From NCBI RefSeq assembly GCF_003003775.1, contig NZ_PVWJ01000042.1, forward strand, positions 1 to 38,784: a DNA stretch of 38,784 nucleotides, written 5' to 3'. The stretch is from Merismopedia glauca CCAP 1448/3. GTDB taxonomy: Bacteria > Cyanobacteriota > Cyanobacteriia > Cyanobacteriales > CCAP-1448. The notes beneath the pieces were generated by a model. The model saw only the letters and a program-made list of their open reading frames with translations. It did not search any database and was not told the origin of the DNA. Shown piece after piece: positions 7,420 to 18,329 of this stretch. Position 1 is the first letter of the stretch; each line of letters opens with the position of its first letter. The position numbers and the translations under genes are program-made.

Positions 7420-7450
7420 AAGGAAGAAGGAAGAGAGAAAAGCCAATATT

Positions 7451-7683
7451 GCGCCAGCACCAGTAGTTTTCCCCTTCGTAAACCCCTAGGGACTAGATCG
7501 ATCAACTCAAGCGGGTACGGGTACTATTGGTCGTTCAATTTACGAAATTCCATCCGGAAAACCAATAGTACCCGATTACCCGCACAGTCAAGATCGAGCT
7601 AGTGATGCATGATATAGCTTAGAACTCAGACAGCGATCTCACTGCCCATAATAGCAAGGTTCTTGACTAACTTGATGCTGAGC
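7451..7683. other. Tandem structured module, copy A
   Basis: First of two direct copies of a module whose outer ends are complementary (GCGCCAGCAC at 7451, GATGCTGAGC at 7674). Order of parts: a 58-bp conserved 5' block (about 86% identical to copy B), a hairpin with a 21-nt left arm at 7511-7531 and a 23-nt right arm at 7561-7583 (only a 2-nt bulge), then a conserved 3' block (53 of 57 positions identical over its first part). The 3' block contains AGTCAAGA (7586-7593) complementary to TCTTGACT (7661-7668); both are unchanged in copy B. The hairpin arms share no sequence with those of copy B. It could be a structured RNA or a non-autonomous mobile element; the strand is undetermined. Confidence 0.6.
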
Positions 7684-7718
7684 TAGTTTCAATCATACCC
7701 TATAAATTGGGAAAAATT

Positions 7719-7979
7719 GCCCCAGCACCAATCGTTTTCCCCTTCGTAAACCCCATAGGACTAGAGCGATCTACTCCAAAGGTGGGATACCCTACCGGAG
7801 CATTAAATTCACGGAATTAAACCCGTAATTTCCGGTAGGGCATCCCACCGCACAGTCAAGATCGAACTAGTGATGCATGATATAACTTAACACTCAGACA
7901 GCGATACGCGCAAGCGCGTCGTCCAAACGAACGCACTGCCCATAATAGCAAGGTTCTTGACTAACTTAGTGCTGGGCGC
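7719..7979. other. Tandem structured module, copy B
   Basis: Second direct copy, starting 35 bp after copy A. The outer ends pair over GCCCCAGCACC and GTGCTGGGCGC, and pairing extends through the flanking AATT (7715-7718) and AATT (7980-7983). The central hairpin has 19-nt arms at 7781-7799 and 7831-7849 with one mismatch, unrelated in sequence to copy A. The 3' block carries AGTCAAGA (7854-7861) and TCTTGACT (7955-7962). It also has an extra insertion of about 28 bp containing the palindrome ACGCGCAAGCGCGT. On the plus strand a TATAAA at 7701-7706 lies the right distance upstream for transcription to start at the module. On the minus strand the closing arm runs into five T residues. The right end coincides with the stop codon of the SWIM gene. 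Confidence 0.6.
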
Positions 7980-7982
7980 AAT

Positions 7983-9623
7983 TTAGAGACACTGACGGGC
8001 ATGGTGCATTCGCAGTGCCAAAATGTGTTCGCAAGGGCCTTTATACAGCTTATTTTGCTGATGCCAATTGCAGGTACATTCTGCTGCTATTATACGCTCA
8101 TCTCCATCAATTTTCACAGTAGGATTATAAGTCTTCAAGCGTTCTTTTACTTCCCCTGTCAAAGTAAGAACACCCCCATTTTGATTTGCCTCAGTCACTT
8201 TGACGACATTTTCTTGCAAAAACCTGGTAGCGCTAGCTTCTCGTTCGTTGGTAAACCTCAGCTTATCCATTGGTAGGGGTTCGCGACTCAACTCCCGTAC
8301 CCGATAAACTTGCTTGTTCAAGTCGTAAATTGCTCTTCCTGCTTGAGTATACGAACTTAAAGCCCCCAAAACTGTACTTTGACTGAGATTCAATCGCTTA
8401 GCTAATTGAGATGGGGTTTCTCGCCAAGTAGTTTTTAAAGCTTGGAATACAGTTTGCTTAGTTGCAGCATCGACATTTCCACGGGGTGCCATTAAGTCAA
8501 AATTGCCAGAACTAGACCAATCATTGGCAGTCCATCCCGATAAACCCAGGGTAAATGACATATCTCCCAAATCCGCAACGTAGAATGAAGGCATACCCGT
8601 TCCCAACAGGTGAACGGTAAACTTTTTCGCCACGGAAATAAGTCTTTCTAAAATCAGTAATCGCCGTCTTCCCCAGACTCTAATCGTCTGTTCGGAACTT
8701 CCTGTATAGATAGAACGGGGACAAATTACTTCAATATTCCACGGTTCAAACACTAGCCACACTGGTTGTCCGGGTTGCAGATGATAGCGCAAACTGCGAG
8801 GGCCTTGCTTCTCTTTGTGGCGACGCAACACCATACAAAGATTGTAGACATCCATCGGTTGTAAGTCAAATTGAATCGTTGGAAGTGACATCGCCGAACT
8901 AACTTGTAAAAACCCCCTTACCCACGTATCTGGTAAGTCGATTTTGACTTCTTTGTAGGCTGATTCGCTAGTAGTTTGAACTTCAAAACCGGAAGGATCT
9001 ACTTGTAATTGAGTGGTTTTATAAGTGCGAATTTTTTGAAATTCATCGTATAAACTAGCTGAGTAATCTACATTAGTAGTTCCGCAAGCAAACTCTTTAA
9101 TATCTTTGAATACTTCATAACTAGCACCTAATCTACCATAGCTAGATTCATCCATACTAAAGCATTCAAAAAATACTTCATCTGGATGTACTGTAATTAC
9201 TGGATCGAGGACAAACCAAGCATCTCGATCTTTTTGATAAATATAATCAAAATACTTTTGTCTGGCTTGATATAATGGTTTTAAACGTTCGTAAGAGCGG
9301 TGTCTTAAGCTTTGAATTTCGGCATTAAGACGATCGATCTTTTGTTTTATTTCTTGTTTTTGAGCAGCTACTAATTGCCAATCAATTTCTAACTGTTGAG
9401 CCGCCCATTCTTTGTAAGCTGTTTTGTCTTTTGGCTTGAATCTTAAGTCTGATATAACTACATCATGAAGGGCGCTAATAGCTTCTCTAAAAGCAATGTT
9501 TTGCCGCAGTTCACCCATAAAATATGTGGGTTGACGAGTCAAGTCGGGAGCAAATGACATTTGGGTATTATTGGCTCGTTCGATAACTCCGGTATTGCCA
9601 CTGTAGGCGTAATTAAATTCCAT
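7983..9623 (-). CDS. SWIM zinc-finger protein
   Basis: The 546-residue product carries a C-terminal SWIM zinc finger: Cys516-x-Cys518, then Cys531-x-His533. The rest has no motif I can name; a coiled stretch rich in Gln and Arg lies around residues 75-115 and a helix-turn-helix-like stretch with RLNLSQSTVLGALSSY around 400-425. Family knowledge: SWIM domains bind DNA or proteins and occur next to WGR, MoxR-ATPase and VWA genes in bacterial Yeh-type clusters. It starts 5 bases after the stop of the WGR-HEAT gene, so the two form an operon and probably a complex. Its TAA stop overlaps the outer boundary of the tandem module. Function unknown; a DNA-associated role is inference. Confidence 0.8.
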   Translation of the reverse strand: MEFNYAYSGNTGVIERANNTQMSFAPDLTRQPTYFMGELRQNIAFREAISALHDVVISDLRFKPKDKTAYKEWAAQQLEIDWQLVAAQKQEIKQKIDRLNAEIQSLRHRSYERLKPLYQARQKYFDYIYQKDRDAWFVLDPVITVHPDEVFFECFSMDESSYGRLGASYEVFKDIKEFACGTTNVDYSASLYDEFQKIRTYKTTQLQVDPSGFEVQTTSESAYKEVKIDLPDTWVRGFLQVSSAMSLPTIQFDLQPMDVYNLCMVLRRHKEKQGPRSLRYHLQPGQPVWLVFEPWNIEVICPRSIYTGSSEQTIRVWGRRRLLILERLISVAKKFTVHLLGTGMPSFYVADLGDMSFTLGLSGWTANDWSSSGNFDLMAPRGNVDAATKQTVFQALKTTWRETPSQLAKRLNLSQSTVLGALSSYTQAGRAIYDLNKQVYRVRELSREPLPMDKLRFTNEREASATRFLQENVVKVTEANQNGGVLTLTGEVKERLKTYNPTVKIDGDERIIAAECTCNWHQQNKLYKGPCEHILALRMHHARQCL

Positions 9624-9628
9624 AGTCT

Positions 9629-12600
9629 TTATCTGGTAAGGGTAACTGGTTTAACAGAAATAGGTAGAGAAATATGGGGATAATGTCGTTGAATTTGATG
9701 AAGAAGTTGAATGGCTTTAGCGCGATCGCTGATACAAATTGTCATAGATTGTCTAGTCATAATTTCAGCCACTAAACTGGCTACAAATTCACTTTGAGTC
9801 GCTTCTCGTTCCAGAAAAGTAAAAACTCGTTTTTTGGCGACTGCACCACGATTGACTAAAGATAAAACCCGTATAAAATAAGATTTCAACTCTTCTATTT
9901 TAGCCGATCTACCACTAGCGTAATCGGTTAAATAATCAGTGGCAAATAGTTGCATATCTGCTGATGGATGTTCGCTCAATTTGAGTAAATACTCTTCTCC
10001 ATAGCTTTGCTGAAAAGTCTTATTTACCAACTCTCTCCCAAACTCCCGGACATTTTCTTTGACGCTATCGCAGATACTAATTAAGATTTCAGGAGTCCAT
10101 TCCTGTAACTGAATTTTTTCGGTAAATAGTGCTTGAGCAAAGTTTTGCGTATCTTCCCATTTTGATTCTAGCAACTTCACAGCCACCTTCATGGCTGAGG
10201 CATCGCTTTTCAGGATATTTACCCTTTGAGTAACTATGGATTGAGCAATTTCTCTGACTTTAATTAATTCATGACTGGCTAATTTGACTAACTCTAAGAC
10301 TTCTAATTCGGCTAACCAAGTTTCAGAACTATTTTGTAACAGGTTTAATCCCAATTCTTGAGCGAAAACCGATTGAGATTCTAGCAACTTCATCACTTGC
10401 GACTTAGTGACTTGTTTCATCCAGTCAGTAACTTCATTTTGCAGCAAATTTACAATATATTCGTGTAAACCTTCTACCTTCTCTTGCCGACTCAATTTAT
10501 TAATTAATTCATCACTAATTCTCTGAGAAAAATCCGCAGATTCTCGACTTAAACGCCCAACTATCGGGCGAACTTCTTGACGGATACTTGCTAATTTATG
10601 AGTTGTCATGGATAATAGCAACTCATATCTTTGCGACAATATCTCTGAAGGCAACTTACCAAAAATTCTAATTCCGATTAAGCGGATTGACTCGTGTTGA
10701 GAATCTAGTAAAGACTCAATTAATTCTGTAGGTAAATCCACCGCCTTTATTTCATGGTTAAGTAGAATTTGCGCGGCTAATTCTTGAACTTCTTTGAGTG
10801 AATGTTTGAGCAAATCTAGAATTACACCCAATCCCAAATTAGACAGTTGCGGAGTAAAACTAACTAAAAGAGTTTCGCCAATTTCTTGAGCCAGGTTTGC
10901 TTGTGAATCTTCCAAACCAATTAAAATAGCAATTAAGCGCCCAATAAATACCTTGGCTCTATTTCCATCATCCCAAATATGAGTGCTGAGTAATTCCCGT
11001 GCAAACAAACGATTGTCGGGATGTTCGTTAGTAATTAATGTCGCCACGAAGTTACTATCTTGTAAAAAGTAACTTTGTTGAGATAAAATCCACTCATGCG
11101 ATCGCTCGCGGGCTGGTTTGTAAGCAGAATTAAGCGCAGCGAGAATTAATTCTAAATTGAATACATTCGGATCGTATTTTCCCTCAAGTAATTCAAACCC
11201 CAATTTAGCCGTTATTTCATAAGGCTTTTGAAGCAGTTTAATCAAACTAGATAATTCTATTTGACTGCAAAAATCCTGACAGCAGCGAATCGCTTTAACA
11301 GCAAATTTATGTACTGGCTGACAATTACTTTCTAAAAGTAGTTTTAATAACGCTTCAGGATTTTGTTCCCAAAGTTCGGGAAAAGATTCTTCTCTAGCTT
11401 CAGGTTCCGCATTTCCTGGTTGATAGGGTTCGACACAGCACCAAGCTTTAGAATTGTGTTTTAACTGATAGCGATCGCTGTTTTCATACAAAATGTGATA
11501 CAGCAGATGATACCTAGCAAAACTATCCCAATGATGATGGTATGCTATGGATCGCCAGTTTCCCCCTTCACGTTCCCATCGGTAAAAAGTACTGCTTCTT
11601 GGTGATTCAGCATCTGTGTCAGAATACTGCAACAGGATCTGAGTCGCTAAATTAATATATTGGGAATCTTGTTCCTCTCCTAATTCTGTTAAAGTGCGCC
11701 AAACTCTCCGACGCAAGTAATTCCGAGTTTGGTTGCTATAGCCCAGCTTAGCATCGGGGGCAGACATAGCGTTCTTGTATTCAGGATTGTCCCACTTACG
11801 ATACTCTCTAGTTTCTTGATTGTATTCGTACTGGTATTTCCGCACCCAAGTACCATTAGGGAGTTTAATGTAGTAGCGATCGCTATCGAACATCGCTGCT
11901 TCTTTCTCTAACCGATAAGTCAAAATCCCAAAAACTTCAGCATCTTGACGATACTCAGCCATTTTGAAGATATGGCGCATCCGTTGCCAATAATTTGGGC
12001 GCAAAGGCGCAGTGCGTAATATATTTAATAAAGCTGGACGCGCGTACTGGTTATCAATTCTATATAAAGTATCTAATACTTCAAACCGTCGATAATCATC
12101 GGTTTCTAAATAATTAGTTAAAATTTTGCAAAAATCCGTCGCCGAACCGCGTTTAACTGTGGTTTGCAACTCTGTTGGTAGCAAGTCAATCATCTCAGAT
12201 TGCAATTGACTGCGAGTCTCTTCATCCGAAAGTTTCAACAAACCTTCAAAAGCTATCCGACTGACAAAATCTGGAGTTGAGGGTTTTTGATAAAGATTAA
12301 TTAAAGCCGGAATTGCACCTTTACCACCACAGTTACCCAAAGCAGCAGCTATACAGTAGTCTTTTAGGTCATTCCCGCCACCTAAAAGGGGAATTATGAG
12401 GGGAGTCGCCTCAGCAATTTTCAACTCTCCAGCGCGCCATATGGCTCGTTCTAGGGACCATTTCGGACTACCACCTTCTGCTATACACTTAAGAATAGCC
12501 TGCTGACGTGCTGCGGGATCTTTAGTGACAGGTTTTACCGAAGCTGTTTCCGCAACCGTCACATCTTGATAACCACCTTTAACTTTAGACGCGACTAACT

Positions 12601-12796
12601 TATCAAATACTTTTTCTGCGGCTTTGAGATCTACAGGTGTATCTGTTTTTGTACCTTCCTTTAGATTAGTACCCCGCCTGCCATAACGGAAATTAACTAG
12701 ATACTTATCCGGTTCAACCTGATACAAATCGACTTCATAGACTTTATCAGAAGAACCTTCTTGATTATGAAGAGTAGTGCGTTTAACTAGTTTCAT
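9629..12796 (-). CDS. WGR domain and HEAT-repeat protein (MolR-like)
   Basis: The 1055-residue product begins with a WGR domain (about residues 1-78; YLVNFRYGRRGTNLKEGTKT is the core), the module found in PARPs and in bacterial MolR/YehI. Almost all the rest is helical and repetitive, with HEAT-like units around 95-200 and 480-1000 (for example ALLKLLLESNCQPVHKFAVK, and many leucine-rich helix pairs). Family knowledge: WGR domains bind nucleic acid ends or strand breaks, and HEAT solenoids are scaffolds. No catalytic domain is visible. It is the first gene of a two-gene operon with the SWIM protein. A DNA-damage or invader-sensing role is possible but only inferred. No MoxR ATPase or VWA partner is found in this window. 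Confidence 0.82.
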   Translation of the reverse strand: MKLVKRTTLHNQEGSSDKVYEVDLYQVEPDKYLVNFRYGRRGTNLKEGTKTDTPVDLKAAEKVFDKLVASKVKGGYQDVTVAETASVKPVTKDPAARQQAILKCIAEGGSPKWSLERAIWRAGELKIAEATPLIIPLLGGGNDLKDYCIAAALGNCGGKGAIPALINLYQKPSTPDFVSRIAFEGLLKLSDEETRSQLQSEMIDLLPTELQTTVKRGSATDFCKILTNYLETDDYRRFEVLDTLYRIDNQYARPALLNILRTAPLRPNYWQRMRHIFKMAEYRQDAEVFGILTYRLEKEAAMFDSDRYYIKLPNGTWVRKYQYEYNQETREYRKWDNPEYKNAMSAPDAKLGYSNQTRNYLRRRVWRTLTELGEEQDSQYINLATQILLQYSDTDAESPRSSTFYRWEREGGNWRSIAYHHHWDSFARYHLLYHILYENSDRYQLKHNSKAWCCVEPYQPGNAEPEAREESFPELWEQNPEALLKLLLESNCQPVHKFAVKAIRCCQDFCSQIELSSLIKLLQKPYEITAKLGFELLEGKYDPNVFNLELILAALNSAYKPARERSHEWILSQQSYFLQDSNFVATLITNEHPDNRLFARELLSTHIWDDGNRAKVFIGRLIAILIGLEDSQANLAQEIGETLLVSFTPQLSNLGLGVILDLLKHSLKEVQELAAQILLNHEIKAVDLPTELIESLLDSQHESIRLIGIRIFGKLPSEILSQRYELLLSMTTHKLASIRQEVRPIVGRLSRESADFSQRISDELINKLSRQEKVEGLHEYIVNLLQNEVTDWMKQVTKSQVMKLLESQSVFAQELGLNLLQNSSETWLAELEVLELVKLASHELIKVREIAQSIVTQRVNILKSDASAMKVAVKLLESKWEDTQNFAQALFTEKIQLQEWTPEILISICDSVKENVREFGRELVNKTFQQSYGEEYLLKLSEHPSADMQLFATDYLTDYASGRSAKIEELKSYFIRVLSLVNRGAVAKKRVFTFLEREATQSEFVASLVAEIMTRQSMTICISDRAKAIQLLHQIQRHYPHISLPISVKPVTLTR

Positions 12797-17644: not shown

Positions 17645-17842
17645 CTATCCAGTAATATGTTGCATCACGATATCGAATTTTCGCTCTAGTTCGACGAATC
17701 GCCCTTCAAGTCTGTCAAATCGTTGATTCACATCTACCTTTAGCCCATCAATGTCTTCATAGACGCGATTGAAAGCACCGTTTAGCTCACGCCAAGTAAC
17801 TTGTGCATCTTCCAATCTGCTAATCCTACATTGACTTCCTCC
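17645..17842 (-). pseudogene. 3' remnant of a coiled-coil protein gene, next to a group II intron end
   Basis: The last 55 or so codons read as a heptad-type coiled coil (ELNGAFNRVYEDIDGLKV, DVNQRFDRLEGRFVELERKF) ending HITG. The open frame continues upstream through the group II intron domains V and VI, where the translation is meaningless. The true gene therefore begins at about the intron 3' junction near 17842. No 5' exon is visible upstream on the minus strand. It is a fragment of a gene interrupted by the intron and then truncated, or an exon left by a rearrangement. Confidence 0.55.
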
Positions 17843-17920
17843 ATGAGGGGTCGAGGCGGATGTTACCATCCAGCCCCTCCCATCCGAAACCCGACGTGAG
17901 ATTTTCACCTCATCGGGCTA
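17843..17920 (-). mobile_element. Group II intron, 3'-terminal fragment (domains V and VI)
   Basis: On the minus strand, bases 17919-17887 fold as a canonical 33-nt domain V. It has a lower helix starting AGCCCGAT, an upper helix GAGGT and ATCTC closed by the GAAA tetraloop, an ACG bulge, and the closing strand GTCGGGTTT. The AGC of the catalytic triad is present. A domain VI-like hairpin follows, with GAGGGG pairing with CCCCTC and a GTAA loop on a GGATG/CATCC stem. The intron would end around 17843. No reverse transcriptase/maturase gene or 5' intron end is in the 400 bp upstream, so this is a truncated relic. Confidence 0.72.
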
Positions 17921-18329
17921 CTCAACATATCTACCCTTGTCAGTGGGACTCTCTACCTTTGGACGAAAGAATATTCCGTATCTAAGGCAGTTTTTTGATC
18001 GTGGCAATGGTGAAGGCATCGATGTAGCATGGATTGCAGCCCCAGGCACGTCAGGAATGGTTTCAAGAAACCTTAGCCCCGTCAGACCTAACCTTGTTGC
18101 CAATAACGCCTAATCCCCTAAAAAAATATGTCTTGAGATCTGGTATTATTGCTAATTAATTGCAATAATGTAATCAAGACATCAATGGTCAGGCTTCCCT
18201 AGTGTTGGGAAAAGGTTCAACCTACCTGTACTAATTGATTGACTGTGGTTTGATCCCCTAGACCCAGAAGTATTTGGGATTGGCAAGGTAAGGTAGCTAA
18301 AAAGTAGTAAATATTAGCAATAGTGGTTT
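17921..18329. other. Region without assignable gene, including a two-tier hairpin
   Basis: From 17921 to about 18111 both strands are open for about 60 codons. Neither reading resembles a family I know, so I call no gene. It may be debris of the host gene or of intron sequence. A large hairpin occupies 18128-18182, and the last 150 bases before the next gene show nothing else. Confidence 0.4.
18128..18182. repeat. 55-bp two-tier hairpin
   Basis: The outer arms ATGTCTTGA (18128-18136) and TCAAGACAT (18174-18182) pair perfectly. Inside, TATTATTGC pairs with GCAATAATG around a TAATTAATT loop. It may be the end of a small mobile element or a structured RNA. Confidence 0.55.

Follow-up and report, generated by a model that had tools for sequence, protein, structure and literature searches.

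Two tandem modules with exchanged stems behind SWIM_XIII and WGR_XIII genes of Merismopedia glauca: probable type XIII retron templates apart from their reverse transcriptase

What kind of element stands twice, side by side, with its flanks conserved and its central hairpin replaced, in the cyanobacterium Merismopedia glauca CCAP 1448/3? The stretch analysed, referred to below as ‘the window’, is the whole 38,784-nucleotide (nt) contig NZ_PVWJ01000042.1 of assembly GCF_003003775.1 (window 1-38,784). An earlier note on this DNA had described two direct copies of a structured module, proposed a functional fold with a variable ‘specificity’ stem, offered the msd hairpins of retrons as one analogy, and placed the module in no described family. 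The analogy was the right lead, since the module follows type XIII retron genes; its context is of a known kind, the proteins next to it being those of a defence type already catalogued. We conclude that the modules are very probably two tandem type XIII retron msr-msd RNAs, encoded on the same minus strand as the SWIM_XIII and WGR_XIII genes that precede them, with a reverse transcriptase (RT) that is encoded elsewhere in the genome and would act in trans. Type XIII retrons are predicted to defend bacteria against phages. Type XIII reportedly goes back to the 2020 classification of Mestre et al.; in PADLOC it is represented by RT_XIII, SWIM_XIII, WGR_XIII and HEAT-ARM_XIII. The genes, the modules and their stems are as follows; each module, read as an msr-msd RNA, is about 230-270 nt long, and R1 denotes a covariance model of the 5' part of this non-coding RNA (ncRNA).

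9629-12796, minus strand: WGR_XIII gene, 1055 amino acids (aa), with a WGR domain (PF05406) and HEAT/ARM repeats (PF13646); PADLOC WGR_XIII, 1188 bits
7983-9623, minus strand: SWIM_XIII gene, 546 aa, with a C-terminal SWIM zinc finger (PF04434); PADLOC SWIM_XIII, 813 bits, residues 1-542
7713-7979, minus strand: copy 2, SWIM-proximal, a predicted type XIII retron msr-msd RNA with its predicted 5' end near 7979; from repeats, fold and R1 (66.7 bits at 7848-7964)
7445-7683, minus strand: copy 1, distal, a second predicted msr-msd RNA; from repeats, fold and R1 (73.1 bits at 7580-7670)
7781-7849, minus strand: exchanged msd stem of copy 2 (arms 7781-7799 and 7831-7849); from complementarity and fold
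7511-7583, minus strand: msd stem of copy 1 (arms 7511-7531 and 7561-7583); from complementarity and fold

The repeat is as it had been described. Three blocks recur in direct orientation: 7445-7508 with 7713-7776 (86%), 7580-7637 with 7848-7905 (93%), and 7634-7683 with 7928-7977 (90%). The central hairpins, which had been credited with some 20 bp of near-perfect pairing, are complementary at 100% in copy 1 (7518-7531 with 7561-7574) and at 95% in copy 2 (7781-7799 with 7831-7849). The 72-nt cores of the two copies fold at -35.3 and -46.5 kcal/mol, values equalled by none of 2000 letter shuffles of each, and the whole modules fold with z scores of -5.7 to -6.8 on both strands. The claim that the hairpins were completely exchanged is right for the stem arms, which are 41% and 52% alike in gapped alignment (shuffled 16-mers give 40%, standard deviation 10). 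The loop, at 67%, is less exchanged than the arms. The 3' block is 87% alike.

On the minus strand the order is WGR_XIII, SWIM_XIII, and then both modules directly behind. The CxC..CxH finger of the SWIM protein is conserved in an alignment of its relatives, from which one locus (L192) with a stop inside its translated stretch was left out. The genome has a single RT_XIII gene, on another contig (C29:3028-4428, 644 bits), with an intact frame of 467 aa. Its product carries RYADD, NATPH and QQEVTG, and so has the YADD site, the NAxxH and the VTG that are hallmarks of retron RTs; among solved RTs, the one of retron Ec86 is closest in sequence (1.6e-58). The SWIM, WGR and RT frames are all open and full length against their models. 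No RT gene is present in the 38.8-kb window contig, no ncRNA match adjoins RT_XIII on C29, and no second locus matching the modules was found in the M. glauca genome.

The module and the type XIII proteins occur together throughout the order. Used as a DNA query against 388 genomes of Cyanobacteriales, the module gave matches in 80 at E 0.01, the weakest of them probably by chance. In 29 of 30 fetched loci it adjoins a SWIM gene that reads towards it, and in seven of the 30 an RT gene falls inside the 1.5-kb flank, one of them scoring 671 bits to RT_XIII. The covariance-model search of cyanobacterial genomes that the earlier note had proposed, made with R1, found 86 copies in 70 of the 388 genomes at 50 bits or more. 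With cut-offs of 600 bits for the RT and 50 bits for the ncRNA, chosen after viewing the score gaps (630 to 558 and 51.9 to 45.4, respectively), RT_XIII is present in 68 genomes and accompanies the ncRNA in 67 (Fisher 2e-70). Three genomes have the ncRNA without an RT at this cut-off (G348, which has a partial RT of 484 bits, G367 and G376), and one (G328) has the RT with a weaker ncRNA match of 44 bits. Across the 71 genomes with either, SWIM_XIII occurs in 70 and WGR_XIII in 69, mostly as single copies. At a distance of 3 kb, 36 of the 86 copies lie behind SWIM only, 28 between SWIM and RT, six before RT only, and 16 near neither; 64 are within 3 kb behind SWIM, on its strand.

The association extends beyond Cyanobacteriales. 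The SWIM protein was searched in named genomes, and the best 80 of 401 relatives were used; these include proteins from Cyanobacteria, Acidobacteriota, Myxococcota, a planctomycete metagenome-assembled genome (MAG) and Thiorhodococcus. Named carriers include Oscillatoria sp. PCC 10802, Chlorogloeopsis fritschii PCC 6912 and Calothrix sp. PCC 7103. The order WGR-SWIM-ncRNA-RT recurs in Acidobacteriota, Myxococcota and Thiorhodococcus. Of the 80 SWIM loci, 70 have the ncRNA's 5' block; an RT lies in the fetched stretch at 46, and all 46 have the ncRNA. A broader ncRNA model, R2, is positive in 4 of 307 Acidobacteriota genomes (one of which, with locus L200 described below, and one other were known beforehand) and in 13 of 292 Myxococcota genomes, one of these with two matches on different contigs, the second weak. 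Searches of 72,556 plasmid and 50,697 phage records gave no match to the module, and one exact 27-base module pattern has none in viral contigs.

Weak matches to the ncRNA model, at 28-45 bits, were also seen (G108, G110, G127, G208, G280, G311, G337, G361 and others). Twelve of 13 lie within 2.2 kb of an RT_XIII-like gene, on the same strand, the ncRNA often following the RT; ten of these RTs score 460-560 bits, as if they formed a sister group.

The architecture of the RNA was read from an alignment of 33 modules in minus-strand orientation. The minus strand is taken to be the working strand because a T-run occurs within 45 nt past its 3' end in 66 of 80 modules, versus 11 of 80 within 45 nt of the other end on the opposite strand. 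These 80 modules, which also underlie the stem and motif counts, are those left of 93 after exclusion of 13 that scored below 50 bits (A) or 15 bits (B). In the window, copy 2 has TTTTT and copy 1 TTTT only. Within the alignment the outer arms, a1 and a2, covary. CCTT-G-C faces CGAAGG and is nearly invariant; CTTGC and CGAAG each occur in all 80 modules counted. A conserved strand, CACTAG..TC-TTGACT, pairs with AGT-TGA..CTAGT and so makes up the msd-stem base. An msr hairpin, the variable stem, and a conserved loop that holds a small hairpin of its own complete the fold. In the two window copies the parts lie thus:

7719-7977, minus strand: outer a1/a2 arms of copy 2 (7969-7977 with 7719-7729); from the fold
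7948-7953, minus strand: CCTT-G-C of copy 2, predicted inner a1 strand and branching G (7949); from family conservation
7654-7659, minus strand: CCTT-G-C of copy 1, predicted inner a1 strand and branching G (7655); from family conservation
7897-7941, minus strand: msr hairpin of copy 2, its loop with an inserted stretch at about 7906-7933; from alignment and fold
7629-7647, minus strand: msr hairpin of copy 1; from covariation (helix 5, 99.6% of cells paired)
7760-7871, minus strand: conserved msd-stem base of copy 2 (7760-7775 with 7854-7871), which carries the variable stem; from fold, alignment and covariation
7492-7603, minus strand: conserved msd-stem base of copy 1 (7492-7507 with 7586-7603); from fold, alignment and covariation
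7741-7746, minus strand: CGAAGG of copy 2, predicted inner a2 strand and template start; from family conservation and covariation
7473-7478, minus strand: CGAAGG of copy 1, predicted inner a2 strand and template start; from family conservation and covariation

Double changes are found in 37 of 63 modelled pairs. The covariation score is 0.376, against 0.148 when shuffled (500 shuffles, none reaching 0.376) and 0.06-0.08 when the partner is slid. In the variable stem (helices 8 and 9) double changes occur in 20 of 20 pairs, which bears out the expectation that the stem would vary with its pairing preserved. The CCTT-G-C/CGAAGG junction resembles that of Retron-Eco1, CCCTTA-G-C against TAAGGG, and we take it to be the place of the branching G, a role drawn from Eco1. 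Because of this resemblance we predict, by analogy, that the multicopy single-stranded DNA (msDNA) starts opposite the bases directly ahead of CGAAGG. Membership of type XIII is thus marked on the protein side by SWIM_XIII, WGR/HEAT-ARM_XIII and a genomic RT_XIII, and on the RNA side by a1/a2 pairing, a conserved G at the end of the pairing, an msr hairpin and an msd stem, the G being a putative branch point.

Three further observations concern the fold. A second long-range pairing that had been singled out, AGTCAAGA/TCTTGACT, is present in both window copies; its outer partner is not retained across the family, and the inner TCTTGACT pairs instead with the AGTTGA flank at the msd-stem base. 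As a family feature this pairing was rejected in the 33-module alignment, being specific to these two copies. The insertion in the msr-hairpin loop of copy 2 (7906-7933, about 26-28 nt) is partly self-complementary and occurs neither in copy 1 nor in the other 31 aligned copies. Finally, there is a second template class (L073 5968-6215, plus strand; L077 4765-5012, minus strand; L132, L134, the first copy of L137, and L206; probably also L139, L209 and L210), in which a mostly long, branched core of about 110-119 nt (68 nt in L139) replaces the single stem, inside an outer stem of the AGCCACC..GGTGGCT type; several of them occur as an additional copy alongside a normal template in the same genome.

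The stem is exchanged as a paired unit. Among 71 distinct normal-length cores, ungapped likeness averages 38% for the 5' arms, versus 76% and 81% for the flanks. Each arm fits its own partner: own 5'/3' pairs average -29.5 kcal/mol versus -11.4 for arms mixed between modules. The median own value is attained by only 0.5% of the mixed pairs; since relationship among stems is common, 16% do as well as the weakest own pair. Tandem copies, dispersed copies and congeners all provide cases of whole-stem exchange. Two genomes of one genus, G061 and G039, differ by one base across two flanking blocks and have unrelated stems. In G015, from the same family as M. glauca, a second copy is flanked by a PPDK/acyltransferase gene and chorismate synthase, and the two copies of this genome are 93% alike in the flanks and 25% in the stem. 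In the window, the stem of copy 1 resembles the stems of many relatives and that of copy 2 is the exchanged one; no donor for it was found in the M. glauca genome, where its arm occurs nowhere else at up to three mismatches.

The composition of the stems is uneven. CTA/TAG occurs in 31 of 36 stem clusters versus 15 expected, CTAG in 10 versus 2.1 expected, and GATC in none. CTA/TAG is possibly a fixed contact or cut site within the exchanged stem; the enrichment may be just a lead, since the 36 clusters could share descent. The idea that stems are sets of palindromic restriction sites was dropped, there being no overall excess (33 versus 31.7 expected) despite the high count of CTAG and the absence of GATC.

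RT and template are often apart. In 31 of the 67 genomes with both, they lie within 6 kb of each other, always on the same strand; in four they share a contig at distances of 28 kb, 639 kb, 1.1 Mb and 5.7 Mb, and in 32 they are on different contigs, some perhaps through assembly breaks. Taken together, 36 of the 67 lack a same-contig RT inside the 6-kb limit. G121 has all of its four parts spread out over one 5.4-Mb contig. The M. glauca RT is 3 kb from the start of its contig, and between the modules and the closer end of theirs there are 7.4 kb, so at least about 10 kb separate RT and modules. The natural reading is that one RT would serve several dispersed templates.

Multiple templates recur as well. 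More than one ncRNA copy is present in 13 of the 70 genomes of the order and a single copy (at least 50 bits) in 57, and 8 of the 80 SWIM loci have more than one. The fullest example is L200, an Acidobacteria MAG, with four tandem modules between SWIM and RT at spacings of about 256, 256 and 253 nt. Their 5' blocks are 88-95% and their 3' blocks 92-100% alike; their outer arms differ, and they have four different stems, each near-perfectly paired, with arms 53-68% alike (gapped). Tandem copies occur in three of six positive Acidobacteriota genomes (the four from the R2 survey and two further). The two tandem templates of the window are one instance of this recurring layout. A decayed-looking second ncRNA copy was also seen in Calothrix parasitica NIES-267 (L177 1863-2056), 4 kb upstream of the SWIM gene; it adjoins a stretch with weak WGR similarity, and its stem is poorly paired.

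How might such a system work? In other retrons, the RT-msDNA complex is reported to keep its effector switched off, and action of a phage protein on the msDNA ends this restraint (PMC13158370, PMC13405049, PMC12548924). A phage methyltransferase is said to modify the stem-loop of Ec86 (PMC13158370), and phage D5 is reported to bind the msDNA of Kva2, and SSB that of Eco8 (PMC13405049, PMC13158370). By extension, the type XIII RT would bind each RNA by the outer a1/a2 stem, the CCTT-G-C/CGAAGG junction with its branching G, the msr hairpin and the msd-stem base, and would copy the msd into a hairpin msDNA of which the stem is the variable part. The msDNA-RT would restrain the WGR and SWIM proteins, which, as the partners that are always present, are likely the effector side; binding, modification or cutting of the stem by a phage factor would lift the restraint. 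The variable stem would be the part exposed to phage triggers, which is where the ‘specificity’ of the earlier note might lie; two templates would give two sensors, and several would widen the sensing range. We suggest, as a tentative proposal that we think rather unlikely as a whole, that type XIII retrons keep a small sensor library: several templates, served by one RT in trans, each stem baiting a different phage protein that binds, methylates or cuts DNA, and all acting on the same WGR/SWIM effector. Stems would be replaced as whole paired blocks, perhaps by msDNA recombining into its own gene, and the sensor would be renewed with the proteins untouched.

Other explanations must be set against the retron assignment. 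Two near-identical tandem copies with inverted ends could be a non-autonomous element, akin to a miniature inverted-repeat transposable element (MITE), whose hairpin site accepts palindromes, and the 16 of 86 copies, in other genomes, for which neither SWIM nor RT is found within 3 kb on the same contig would suit it. This was the rival named in the earlier note, and it fails the test given there: the module has one locus in the M. glauca genome and fixed neighbours, being beside SWIM in 29 of 30 fetched loci. It is also single in 57 of 70 genomes, near-perfect in its co-occurrence with RT_XIII, covarying internally, msr hairpin included, and missing from the plasmid and phage records, and a MITE is extremely improbable. 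We give as little credence to an unrelated regulatory RNA of the SWIM 3' region, be it a terminator, riboswitch or attenuator. The 64 of 86 copies close behind SWIM and the T-runs past the 3' end in 66 of 80 would fit such an RNA; co-occurrence with an RT that is often unlinked, the 6 of 86 copies that adjoin RT alone, the 16 that have neither gene nearby, and the tandem arrays would not. The absence of an RT from the 38.8-kb contig, the insertion in the msr-hairpin loop of copy 2 and the lack of a clear T-run in copy 1 would suit relics of a decaying retron, which has lost its RT from the locus and let its second stem drift. Relics are nonetheless very unlikely, given that the SWIM, WGR and RT frames are open and full length, that both copies retain CCTTGC, CGAAGG, the msr hairpin and a near-perfect stem, and that the RT is distant in 36 of 67 genomes with both parts.

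The remaining alternative accepts the retron and questions the role of its stem, which would be a rigid double-stranded rod of neutral sequence, exchanged by drift and quasi-palindrome correction and without any part in sensing. It is a serious possibility, short of probable. Pairing is retained while sequence changes, stems drift gradually in close relatives, and a commentary states that msDNA sequences tolerate variation with defence retained (PMC13158370). Against the rod, the stems are non-random in their CTA/TAG and CTAG content, several intact templates that differ in their stems are maintained next to one another, and the stem-loop is the very part of Ec86 that the phage methyltransferase is said to modify (PMC13158370).

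Several results weigh against the type XIII assignment, or against the fuller picture drawn from it. The contiguity with an RT that is usual in retrons is missing: no RT gene adjoins the ncRNA in the window, and action of the RT in trans would have to be supposed; the locus is accordingly filed as a split variant, not a canonical retron. Rfam, whose families include retron msr, gives for the window RNA nothing beyond three microRNA models, which score far below their cut-offs, even when E values up to 10 are admitted. The ncRNA is absent from the fetched stretch at 10 of 80 SWIM loci. AlphaFold models the SWIM protein poorly (pLDDT 54.6, where pLDDT is the predicted local distance difference test score); the model suggests helices and strands resembling a winged helix ahead of the finger. 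And in close relatives (SWIM identity at least 88%) the SWIM-proximal stems are mostly similar, with medians of 0.85-0.94 across 59 loci, so that a large share of the stem change is gradual and compensatory. Exchange thus appears occasional rather than constant, and hypervariability should not be overstated.

Among known systems, the type XIII retron is closest to the window locus, which has the same three protein families, mostly in single copy, and whose ncRNA combines a1/a2 arms with a candidate branching G and a long msd stem; the locus differs in its unlinked RT and in having, here and elsewhere, two to four templates side by side with exchanged stems. Retron-Eco1 (Ec86, type II) supplies the nearest solved RT and the similar junction. 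It has one ncRNA adjoining its RT, and an effector unlike WGR and SWIM, namely an NDT with a winged helix; no Rfam retron model matches the window RNA. CRISPR and TIGR arrays are similar solely in having conserved flanks around exchangeable units, whereas the variable unit of the retron modules pairs with itself; guide pairing was not noticed in the modules, though no search was aimed at it. Retron-Kva2 (type IX) and Retron-Eco8 resemble the proposed mechanism in that phage proteins, D5 and SSB, reportedly act on their msDNA; they differ in their HEPN or OLD effectors, and the available parts of the papers describe no template arrays for them (PMC13405049, PMC13158370).

The protein set is that of a catalogued retron type; the variant with template arrays and an unlinked RT appears to be new. 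In the open literature (titles and the starts of abstracts) we found no account of a type XIII ncRNA, of template arrays or of unlinked RTs, which is not proof of absence. Type XIII is only listed, in the part of the paper available, among the PADLOC hits of a Variovorax strain (PMC11953036), and PADLOC has msr-msd covariance models of its own (PMC9252829), which may already cover the window RNA. The family alignment provides a working ncRNA definition for type XIII retrons that no Rfam model matches. The split layout means that searches next to the RT alone would miss templates in up to 36 of 67 genomes, some of them maybe assembly breaks. The window also presents a natural stem swap, since one genome has, next to each other, two RNAs of the same frame whose paired stems differ; swapping stems within this pair, or within the acidobacterial four, would directly test the stem as the determinant of the phage sensed.

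Elsewhere in the window, a small frame at 17645-17908, for which there is no Pfam match, lies over a stretch (17843-17922, minus strand) that matches an Rfam group II intron domain at 42.5 bits (gathering score 40).

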